64,000 bases of DNA, taken from the NCBI RefSeq assembly GCF_007827275.1, contig NZ_VISE01000001.1, forward strand, positions 62,001 through 126,000. The letters are read 5' to 3'. Below the pieces are notes generated by a model, which searched no databases, had not been told where the DNA came from, and saw only the letters and a program-made list of their open reading frames with translations. This DNA comes from Gillisia sp. Hel_I_86. GTDB taxonomy: Bacteria; Bacteroidota; Bacteroidia; Flavobacteriales; Flavobacteriaceae. Positions 37,858 to 41,628 of this stretch are shown in pieces. A program made the translations under genes and the position numbers. Each line of letters starts with the position of its first letter. Position 1 is the stretch's first letter.

Positions 37858-38367
37858 ATGGTTTATAGATTTAGAGTTATTTTGGATACGCAAGATGACG
37901 TTTTTAGGGATATTGAAATATTGGAAGAGAGCACATTGGAAGATTTTCATAACGCTATCGTGAATGCTTTTGGTTTTGATGGAAATGAAATGGCAGCTTT
38001 TTACATTAGCGATGAGGAATGGAACCAAGGCGAAGAAATATCCCAGTTCGATCTTGGGGAAGACCTTGGCTCTGTTAGGTTAATGAACGAAACCACGCTG
38101 GATAGCGTAGTTTCTAAGAAGCAGAGGAAACTGATCTATGTGTACGATTTTCTAAGCATGTGGACATTCCTGATTGAATTGGCCGATATCGCTGAAATTG
38201 AAGATGGTCGGGATTACCCTAACCTGATGTATGTGCATGGCCAAATCCCTGCCGATGCGCCAGATAAAGAATTTATAGCCGATAAAAATGAGTATGATGA
38301 CGACGATGATTCAGGTTTGGACCTCGACAACTTTGATGACCTTTCTTACGACGATATTTGGAACTAG
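37858..38367 (+). CDS. Plasmid pRiA4b ORF-3 family protein
   Basis: The 169-residue soluble protein shows the ORF-3 fold pattern. YRFRVILDTQDDVFRDIEI opens a beta region. LEDFHNAIVNAFGFDGNEMAAFYI and EEISQFDLGEDLGSVRL follow, then KLIYVYDFLSMWTFLIELADI. The C-terminal 25 residues are almost all Asp, Leu and Ser (DDDDDSGLDLDNFDDL). The family was named from a plasmid and is sometimes found beside insertion sequences, but no transposase is near, so this looks like a resident chromosomal gene. Function is unknown. Confidence 0.82.
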   Translation: MVYRFRVILDTQDDVFRDIEILEESTLEDFHNAIVNAFGFDGNEMAAFYISDEEWNQGEEISQFDLGEDLGSVRLMNETTLDSVVSKKQRKLIYVYDFLSMWTFLIELADIAEIEDGRDYPNLMYVHGQIPADAPDKEFIADKNEYDDDDDSGLDLDNFDDLSYDDIWN

Positions 38368-38513: not shown

Positions 38514-39572
38514 ATGATCAACCTATATAACGCACAAATCGAGTCCCTTTCTATTCATAGGGTTGGAAATAAGAGCAGAAACGAAAATATTTTCCTTTCT
38601 GGTGCTCCCTTCGAATTGAATGATGAAATCGCTCCTTTGATCAAAGAATATTTCTTGAAATCTTTCAGGGAAAAAGAAGAGAATTATTATCAGTTTGCCC
38701 ATGAAACCGATTTGGAATTCAATGAGTTATATAACTTGGCAAATCAAATTTTTGATGCTCCCGAGACGGTCCATGAGGTTTCAAAAAAAATAACCACTTT
38801 ATTATTTGAGCAATCCTCCCATCCGCATATTAAAAGTGGGGAGGTGTATGTTGTTTATTTTGAAAACATGCTGTTGGATAATGAAAAGGTTTCAGCGATC
38901 GGGATCTTTAAATCTGAATTAAAACATGATTTTCTTCAGTTTCAAGAAAATGGTTCATTGCTGGAAATGGTAATTCAACAAGGGATCAACCTCCAAAAAA
39001 TGGATAAAGGAGCCTTGATCTTCAATAAAAATAGGACTGAAGGCTACAAGATCCTTTCCGTAGATTCCAATAGATATGACACCAAATACTGGTTGGAAAA
39101 TTTTCTTGGCGTAGATGTATTGGCAGATGAAAATTTCTATACCAAGAAATATTTAAAATTTTGCCAGAACTTTGCAAAAGATGTGGTGCTCCCTGCCGAA
39201 GACAAAAAAGAAGAAGTGATGTTCATGAACAGAAGTGTGGATTATTTCGCGAAAAACGACGCTTTTGAGGAAACCAATTTCTTGAATTCCGTAATCGACA
39301 ATCCAGATTTAATTCCTGAGTTTAGAAATTACAAACAAGAAAAAGCGCCAAAATATAAAATTGAAGATCTAACTGAATTTAATATTGCAAACGCGGCCGT
39401 CACTTCCGCAAGAAAGTCTATTAAAAACACCATTAATTTGGATACCAACATTCAAATTAAAATGGATTTTATCAATCCGGAATCTGCCCAGAAATTTGTT
39501 GAAAAAGGATGGGATGAGGAAAAACAGATGTATTACTACCTGGTATACTTCAATAAAGAAGAAAAGAGTTAA
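38514..39572 (+). CDS. Nucleoid-associated protein (NdpA/YejK family)
   Basis: The 352-residue cytosolic protein belongs to the 37-kDa nucleoid-associated family. The start MINLYNAQIESLSIHRVGNK and the block GEVYVVYFENMLLDNEKVSAIGIFKSE are typical. Residues about 235-330 are a charged helical domain. The role in DNA organisation is known only broadly. Its 3' end overlaps the convergent unknown gene by 4 bp. Two heptanucleotide repeats lie in its leader. Confidence 0.87.
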   Translation: MINLYNAQIESLSIHRVGNKSRNENIFLSGAPFELNDEIAPLIKEYFLKSFREKEENYYQFAHETDLEFNELYNLANQIFDAPETVHEVSKKITTLLFEQSSHPHIKSGEVYVVYFENMLLDNEKVSAIGIFKSELKHDFLQFQENGSLLEMVIQQGINLQKMDKGALIFNKNRTEGYKILSVDSNRYDTKYWLENFLGVDVLADENFYTKKYLKFCQNFAKDVVLPAEDKKEEVMFMNRSVDYFAKNDAFEETNFLNSVIDNPDLIPEFRNYKQEKAPKYKIEDLTEFNIANAAVTSARKSIKNTINLDTNIQIKMDFINPESAQKFVEKGWDEEKQMYYYLVYFNKEEKS

Positions 39573-40633
39573 AATCTTTTCTTCTTCAAGTTTACGTTTT
39601 CATAATTTCTTTTTACAAATTCCAATGCGGTCCTTAAAATTTGGCCCATGGTCTTAGCTCTCTTAAATTTCATGTCATTAGTAAATGCATAAAGATCCTT
39701 TCGAAGCATTTTAACATTTTCTGCAGTAGAGATATTATCATTGATCATACACCTAACCAGTTCCTTAAAACGGGCTTGGGCATTGATCATTCTCTTGGCC
39801 AGCAAGGAGCGCTCTTCTTTTCTATATTGTTCTATGGAACTATGTTCTAATTTTTGGGTCACCAACTCTACCATTTTAAAATTCTCCTTGAAAAATTGAG
39901 GCCTATACACCTTTAAATTACCTTCATAGCACTGCTGATCAAAATCTATAGCCCGAATGGTATATTCCACATGATCAAAATCGTGGGTAGGGATCACCAC
40001 ATAATTATAGGAACGCATATCGCCAAGCAGTCTCATGGTACAGCGCTCGTTAAATTTTACAAACTGTTTTGCTATTTGGGTTTTTGCACGTTCGTCGCAA
40101 AGAGGGAGTTCATCTTGGATAAATACATCTCCAGGAATTCCAGCAATATGTTCTTCTATTAAGGTGTCTTTGTAAACAAGAAAATTGATCCTATGCGGAG
40201 ATAAAAGATGCTCAAATTCCAATCCATAAACCCTGGAAGCATCGGCTATCTTTACATAGAAATAGATGAAACTATCATTTAGGGTGTTTCTAACCCGAAT
40301 TCTAAAAGGTTTCGAATTTCCGAAAGTGCAATAATCAATAGCATCTATATTCAGGTAAGGAAGTGAATCATCACTACCATCGGAGTGCAATATGGTATAC
40401 ACATATTTTAAAGACTCATCAATTTCGTTTCGCTCGCTATCAGAATAATAGCAACGCACCCATAATGTATCTTCTTCATGTTGATCGTAAACCACTATAG
40501 AACCAGAAAACCTCAACAGATCGTCATAAAAAACAGGGATTTTAGTATGCCTGTTATATTTCTCCAAATATTTATACAAACGTTCATTTACTGGAAAGGA
40601 AGGCTTTTTCCTCGACATTAAATTTTCTTCCAT
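39569..40633 (-). CDS. Unknown protein with kinase-like catalytic motifs
   Basis: The 354-residue soluble protein (alternative start at M6) belongs to no family I recognise by name. The first 100 residues are mixed alpha/beta. From about 120 to 245 the order of motifs resembles a protein-kinase or aminoglycoside-phosphotransferase fold. It has YFYVKIA (K128, ATP lysine?), LIEEHIAG (E160-E161, hinge-like), LLGDMRSYNYVVI (D205 and N210, catalytic loop GDxxxxN) and IRAIDFDQQ (D230-F-D232, DFG position). Residues 265-354 are strongly basic and helical, a possible nucleic-acid-binding tail. It has its own TTC-N19-TATTTTTG promoter. The kinase reading is inference; a non-catalytic fold relative is possible. 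Confidence 0.6.
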   Translation of the reverse strand: MEENLMSRKKPSFPVNERLYKYLEKYNRHTKIPVFYDDLLRFSGSIVVYDQHEEDTLWVRCYYSDSERNEIDESLKYVYTILHSDGSDDSLPYLNIDAIDYCTFGNSKPFRIRVRNTLNDSFIYFYVKIADASRVYGLEFEHLLSPHRINFLVYKDTLIEEHIAGIPGDVFIQDELPLCDERAKTQIAKQFVKFNERCTMRLLGDMRSYNYVVIPTHDFDHVEYTIRAIDFDQQCYEGNLKVYRPQFFKENFKMVELVTQKLEHSSIEQYRKEERSLLAKRMINAQARFKELVRCMINDNISTAENVKMLRKDLYAFTNDMKFKRAKTMGQILRTALEFVKRNYENVNLKKKRF

Positions 40634-40725: not shown

Positions 40726-41628
40726 TTGGAAACAATTCTTACTATAAATCAGCTTACCAAAAAATATGGAAGTTTAACAGCGGTAAACAACCTATCCTTT
40801 ACAATTAAGAAAGGGAATGTTTATGGCATTTTAGGGCCTAACGGAAGCGGAAAATCCACCACCTTGGGAATGGTGCTAAATGTGGTAAATAAAACCAGTG
40901 GGGATTTCCATTGGTTCGACGGTTCCAATTCTACCCATGAAGCCTTAAAGAAAGTAGGGGCTATTATCGAGCATCCTAATTTCTATCCTTATATGACCGC
41001 GGCCCAAAACCTTGCATTGGTTTGTAAGATCAAGGAGATCTCAAAAAACAAAATTGAAGAGAAACTTGAGATTGTAGGACTGCTGGATAGAAAAGATAGT
41101 AAATTTAGGACCTTCTCTTTAGGGATGAAACAACGCTTGGCGATCGCCTCTGCCCTCTTGAACGATCCGGAAATCCTGATTTTAGATGAGCCCACCAACG
41201 GCTTGGATCCACAAGGCATCCATCAAATTAGAGAGATTATTCGAAAAATCGCATCCATGGGCACCACTATTCTTTTGGCCTCTCATTTATTGGATGAAGT
41301 AGAAAAAGTTTGCACCCATGTGGTGATTATTAGAAAAGGCATTAAACTGTATAGCGGCAGAGTGGATGAAATGAATGCTAGTCATGGCTTTTTCGAGCTA
41401 AAAGCAAATGATCTGGTCAAACTTCAGCAATTGTTGGAAGATCATCCCTCTATTGGAAAAATTACCGTAAACGAAGGGCTTTTAACTGCTATTTTGGAAG
41501 AACCCATGAACGCCGATGATTTAAACTCGTTCCTCCATCAAAGAGGAATGACACTCTCCTATTTGGTAAAAAGAAAAGAAAGCCTGGAAGAGCAATTTTT
41601 ACAATTAACCAACCAAACCGCCCAGTAG
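40726..41628 (+). CDS. ABC transporter ATP-binding protein
   Basis: The protein has 300 residues with a TTG start. It has all ATPase motifs: Walker A GPNGSGKS (37-44), the signature FSLGMKQRLA, and Walker B with D-loop ILILDEPTNGLDP, followed by the switch histidine in LLASHLLDEV. The C-terminal 80 residues are the extension typical of ABC-2-type exporters with bacitracin/antibiotic resistance-like organisation. It abuts its permease gene with zero spacing (TAG then ATG). The substrate is unknown. Confidence 0.93.
   Translation: METILTINQLTKKYGSLTAVNNLSFTIKKGNVYGILGPNGSGKSTTLGMVLNVVNKTSGDFHWFDGSNSTHEALKKVGAIIEHPNFYPYMTAAQNLALVCKIKEISKNKIEEKLEIVGLLDRKDSKFRTFSLGMKQRLAIASALLNDPEILILDEPTNGLDPQGIHQIREIIRKIASMGTTILLASHLLDEVEKVCTHVVIIRKGIKLYSGRVDEMNASHGFFELKANDLVKLQQLLEDHPSIGKITVNEGLLTAILEEPMNADDLNSFLHQRGMTLSYLVKRKESLEEQFLQLTNQTAQ

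Follow-up and report, generated by a model that had tools for sequence, protein, structure and literature searches.

The gene on the reverse strand at 39569-40633 raises the question of what protein it encodes and on what substrate that protein might act. The window, a stretch of 64,000 nucleotides, is part of a Bacteroidota genome that consists of one contig of 4.25 Mb, and the named homologues closest to the protein come from Gillisia. The original prediction described an unrecognised protein with ordered kinase-like motifs whose gene overlaps that of a nucleoid-associated protein (NA37), and proposed a new kinase-like family acting on nucleic acid or a nucleoid partner. The features of the locus are as follows.

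38514..39572, + strand: NA37 gene, convergent neighbour (PF04245, E = 3.9e-56; 3' ends overlap by 4 bp)
39569..40633, - strand: gene of the putative kinase-fold protein, 354 aa, ATG start (ORF call, orthologues, dN/dS)
40355..40633, - strand: N-terminal region, residues 1-93, predicted mostly helical (model and 37-member alignment)
40250..40252, - strand: K128, proposed as the lysine for the ATP phosphates, in strand three of the N-lobe sheet (invariant; predicted strand 121-129)
40211..40213, - strand: E141, proposed partner of K128 in the next predicted helix, 132-144 (invariant in the 37-member alignment)
40151..40156, - strand: E160-E161, proposed hinge at the end of strand 157-161 (E160 invariant, E161 92%)
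40004..40024, - strand: GDMRSYN (204-210), proposed catalytic loop (G204, D205 and N210 invariant; variants in other branches)
39938..39946, - strand: DFD (230-232), proposed metal-binding equivalent of DFG (invariant)
39572..39889, - strand: C-terminal basic helical region, residues 249-354 (five to six predicted helices; 25 K+R, 13 D+E)

The ORF is a real gene under strong conservation, with a dN/dS of about 0.025 (0.024 and 0.027, pairwise for two Gillisia orthologues, synonymous sites being saturated for others). The ORF and the motifs K128, E160-E161, GDMRSYN and DFD lie where they had been placed before, and the overlap with the NA37 gene is confirmed as the four bases 39569-39572 (ttaa), the NA37 stop being at 39570-39572 and that of the kinase-fold ORF at 39571-39569. 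This ttaa is a four-base palindrome that serves as overlapping stop codons for both convergent genes. An ABC transporter gene starting at 40726 is divergent from the kinase-fold gene, which has no co-directional neighbour on its own strand and thus looks monocistronic in the window. A gene for a PRiA4_ORF3-like protein (PF07929, window 37858-38367) is a conserved neighbour in Flavobacteriaceae and stays where NA37 is missing.

The kinase-fold gene is carried by 77 of the 296 genomes of the order and by 99 of 395 Bacteroidota genomes, almost always in a single copy, and orthologues at 82-93% identity are present in almost every genome sampled from the genus. No copy was found on the plasmids, phages and viral contigs searched, and the family is chromosomal and usually single-copy. 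Some close relatives lack the gene, so it is probably dispensable. In one genome of the same genus (G013, L147:3880-4934), it is split over frames by apparent frameshifts, which could reflect recent loss or a sequencing error. Genome G400 carries two copies (L188 and L189); the second, a paralogue, has diverged very far (end branch 2.3-2.5), yet its catalytic residues are kept.

The original prediction had tied the kinase idea to a two-lobed fold and to the conservation of D205, N210, D230 and D232; such a fold is predicted, as described below, and all four residues are invariant across phylum-wide homologues. Among 137 homologues, K128, E160, D205, R207, Y209, N210, D230, F231 and D232 are invariant. 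In a 37-member phylum-wide alignment that extends to other classes, and whose members share 39-93% identity with the window protein, K128, E160, G204, D205, N210, D230, F231 and D232 are invariant and E161 is conserved at 92%, and R207 and Y209 are no longer invariant once these other classes are included. K10, R28, Y36, T56 and W58 of the N-terminal region are also invariant in this alignment. In 200,000 random draws of positions with matching residue types, the conservation of the motif set was never reached, and the kinase-like motif pattern is beyond chance. The GDMRSYN loop, described earlier as unusual, is present but less odd than claimed: most of class Bacteroidia has GDMRSYN or GDMRAYN, while GDMHSGN, GDMHAGN, GDMHTGN or GDMHSSN is found elsewhere, another branch of the phylum thus reading GDMH[SAT]GN. 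The catalytic-loop motif of PI3K is GDRHxxN, to which the GDMHSGN variant is close. The basic helical tail also holds up, with 25 K+R versus 13 D+E over residues 249-354 of a protein that is mildly basic as a whole (pI 8.0).

The protein is indeed unrecognised, since no curated family or PDB chain matched it significantly: Pfam, NCBIfam, PHROG and PADLOC gave no significant match, and neither did the PDB, whether searched by sequence or by two profiles. The best PDB match, a C2H2-type protein (E = 0.14), and the best single-member Pfam match, LOH1CR12 (E = 0.00064, 1 of 28 members), were judged to be chance. In the Pfam scans, APH (PF01636) was not matched, and no match to PF00454 (PI3_PI4_kinase), HipA_C (PF07804) or CotH was found at E ≤ 1. 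The PF00454 profile also stayed silent over 148 Bacteroidota genomes, some of which carry the kinase-fold gene, and by this profile the protein falls outside the family. By hhalign, the best local matches to APH (E = 0.17-0.18, 10 columns; GDMRSYNYVV on GDLWNGNFII) and HipA_C (E = 0.09, 15 columns) fall on the catalytic loop and are not significant, which is consistent with a kinome survey (PMC1821047) in which PI3K, treated there as eukaryote-specific, has no sequence similarity to other families outside a few key motifs. No published description of the Bacteroidota family was found in the open-licence PMC literature. BT4322, a lipid kinase of Bacteroides (PMC12280919), is a DgkB/SphK-fold protein and is unrelated.

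AlphaFold2 models were obtained for the window protein with 48 orthologues (pLDDT 81.1, pTM 0.82) and for a Tenacibaculum orthologue with 61 others (pLDDT 80.7, pTM 0.79). The predicted N-lobe has three strands with K128 on the third, the helix 132-144 and two strands up to E160, followed by helices, GDMRSYN, two strands, DFD and a helical C-lobe, and this kinase-type order is repeated in the Tenacibaculum model. Confidence is medium for both models and drops near residues 41-60, 201-210 and 231-250; two of these three segments are at the active site. Foldseek found 72 and 129 PDB matches for the two models at E ≤ 0.001, all of those listed being kinase-fold, with low TM-scores (0.24-0.41), and Jak-family pseudokinase domains (JH2) head both lists. 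Viral predicted structures that matched are mostly generic Ser/Thr kinases. The best 50 entries listed by VIA-align 2 are all PI3K/PI4K/PIKK for both models, the comparison covering Foldseek's top 1000 chains, in which PI3K entries are numerous, so that another kinase family may match as well. VPS34 leads for the window protein (7rsj; Z 13.7, 4.3 Å, 273 aligned residues), residues from 17 on aligning with VPS34 from about 396, and again for the second orthologue (Z 14.0, 4.3 Å, 272 aligned). Models that lack a clear match usually reach Z 7 to 8, which both scores exceed, but both lie close to the 14 cited for mostly helical models; the present model is mixed, with a sheet-bearing N-lobe. APH, HipA, CotH, RIO and KdoK are absent among the structural matches listed, a listing that leaves all five possible. 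The conserved lysine, catalytic Asp...Asn and metal Asp (K128, D205, N210 and D230, all invariant) occur in the order of the PKL superfamily. The models indicate that the protein likely has the two-lobed kinase fold of this superfamily, and they support a PI3K-like structure.

The kinase part of the earlier proposal of a new family is therefore supported by the two predicted models, the kinase-fold structural matches and the invariant residues. From the conservation, predicted fold, distribution and gene neighbours, we infer, with a probability of about 0.75, a soluble, catalytically competent ATP/Mg-dependent PKL phosphotransferase that forms its own family and is structurally nearest to PI3K/PI4K/PIKK. 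The same topology in two models, structural matches to kinase folds only, the invariance of D205, N210, D230 and D232, the low dN/dS, the likeness of GDMHSGN to GDRHxxN and the gene pair with bshA argue for a kinase; the fact that no kinase family is matched significantly by sequence or profile, the silence of PF00454, the low TM-scores, the weak spots at the active site and the absence of bshA linkage in class Bacteroidia (see below) weigh against this reading. ATP would bind between the two lobes, where K128, probably held by E141, would position the alpha and beta phosphates, with E160-E161 as the hinge. D205 may act as the catalytic base, N210 and D230 would bind Mg, and D232 would take the place of the DFG glycine. 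The substrate site may be shaped by the basic C-terminal helices and the post-DFD segment QQxYEG...YxPxxxxEN.

The best clue to the substrate is bshA (TIGR03999), a biosynthetic gene of bacillithiol synthesis. It lies directly upstream of the kinase-fold gene, on the same strand and with short gaps, at nine loci (L179, L180, L181, L183, L184, L185, L187, L190 and L191) of seven GTDB families outside class Bacteroidia (f28, f40, f44, f54, f56, f58 and f68), in which the catalytic loop reads GDMHSGN. The kinase-fold gene is not beside bshA in families f33 and f52, and no such linkage occurs in class Bacteroidia, the window being no exception. In the family tree, the bshA-linked genes group together in one branch with strong support (100/100), and the pair may thus be an arrangement inherited once. 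Because bshA is present in 379 of 395 genomes, its co-occurrence with the kinase-fold gene carries no information; none of the 16 genomes without bshA carries the kinase-fold gene, versus about 4 expected, a comparison confounded by phylogeny. The pair is a stronger functional clue than the NA37 overlap and a lead to bacillithiol or redox metabolism, and its conservation in other classes of the phylum suggests that the substrate is a metabolite, lipid or regulator tied to envelope/thiol metabolism rather than DNA.

The protein could also represent a kinase family of the PI3K/PI4K lineage itself, native and phylum-wide, that phosphorylates an endogenous bacterial lipid or a bacillithiol-related molecule; we consider this fairly unlikely. 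It is rather unlikely that the kinase is nearer to the APH/choline-kinase cluster than to PI3K and phosphorylates a small metabolite. The best APH profile match sits exactly on the catalytic loop, GDMHSGN also resembles the APH motif HGDxxxxN and the bshA neighbour is biosynthetic, but that match is not significant and the leading VIA-align 2 entries are PI3K-type, although APH may be missing among the chains compared. Chances are low that the protein is a pseudokinase, a nucleotide-binding regulator of another protein that transfers no phosphate: the lead of JAK-family pseudokinase domains in Foldseek, R207 and Y209 of the Bacteroidia branch at positions where an H and a small residue are usual, and D232 in place of the DFG glycine fit this, but under relaxed catalysis one would not expect the lysine, the catalytic Asp, the Asn and the metal Asp to be invariant phylum-wide, as all four are. 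It is very unlikely that the protein is a Ser/Thr kinase of the HipA-like kind with a role as persistence toxin or stress regulator; such a kinase would belong to the same superfamily, and the best local match to the HipA profile covers the catalytic loop, but this match lacks significance, a distinct HipA gene (PF07804) is present in the host, no conserved small partner gene adjoins at 48 diverse loci, and the gene is phylum-wide, chromosomal and found on no plasmid. The host HipA_C gene is located at G000:C1:2476313-2476945.

The proposed action on nucleic acid or a nucleoid partner finds no support. NA37 adjoins the kinase-fold gene at only 9 of the 48 loci, all in Flavobacteriaceae, and each gene occurs without the other. 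Of the 77 carriers in the order sample, 70 also have NA37, which occurs in a further 48 genomes that lack the kinase-fold gene. Within Flavobacteriaceae there is no association, because NA37 is present in 44 of 45 carriers (the exception being G119) and in 4 of 5 non-carriers (G204, G244, G269 and G289). Small genomes that lack both genes probably account for much of the order-wide co-occurrence, and the overlap with NA37 is a synteny that only part of one family retains. The two genes are convergent, not co-transcribed. That the protein works with NA37 or on nucleic acid is thus very improbable, the overlapping stops, the order-wide co-occurrence and the basic tail notwithstanding.

The ATP/Mg-dependent phosphotransferase favoured here would represent an enzyme-like family that is present in about a quarter of sampled Bacteroidota and for which there is no name, no Pfam model and no relative of solved structure. 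Should it prove active, the bacterial kinome would gain a family on the PI3K-like side of the superfamily, which is sparsely populated, and if it is of the PI3K/PI4K lineage, a group otherwise known mainly from eukaryotes, it offers a non-eukaryotic view on the origin of PI3K-type kinases. The bshA pair makes its function testable.

Compared with known systems, the protein is best matched in both models by the PI3K/PI4K/PIKK catalytic domain (PF00454; VPS34, PI4KB, p110, mTOR and SMG1), with about 272 residues aligned at Z 13.7-14.0 and GD-[MR]-[RH]-x-x-N followed by IDF-[DG] type motifs in equal order. However, identity in the aligned rows is 7-13%, PF00454 does not detect the Bacteroidota protein, and DFD stands in place of DFG; the protein is also bacterial, about 354 aa long, and has no lipid-binding or HEAT-type regions. 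Next to the GDRHxxN loop of PI3K, its own loop reads GDMRxYN or GDMH[SAT]GN. APH/choline kinases (PF01636) share GDxxxxN and IDxD-type motifs with it at the superfamily level but give no significant profile match. The same level of likeness is seen for HipA-type kinases (PF07804), which are also bacterial, but again no profile match is significant and the kinase-fold loci show no toxin-antitoxin organisation. The Jak-family JH2 domains have the top Foldseek E-values, but their TM-scores (by query length) are about 0.24-0.32, and in contrast to them the Bacteroidota protein keeps all catalytic-type residues.
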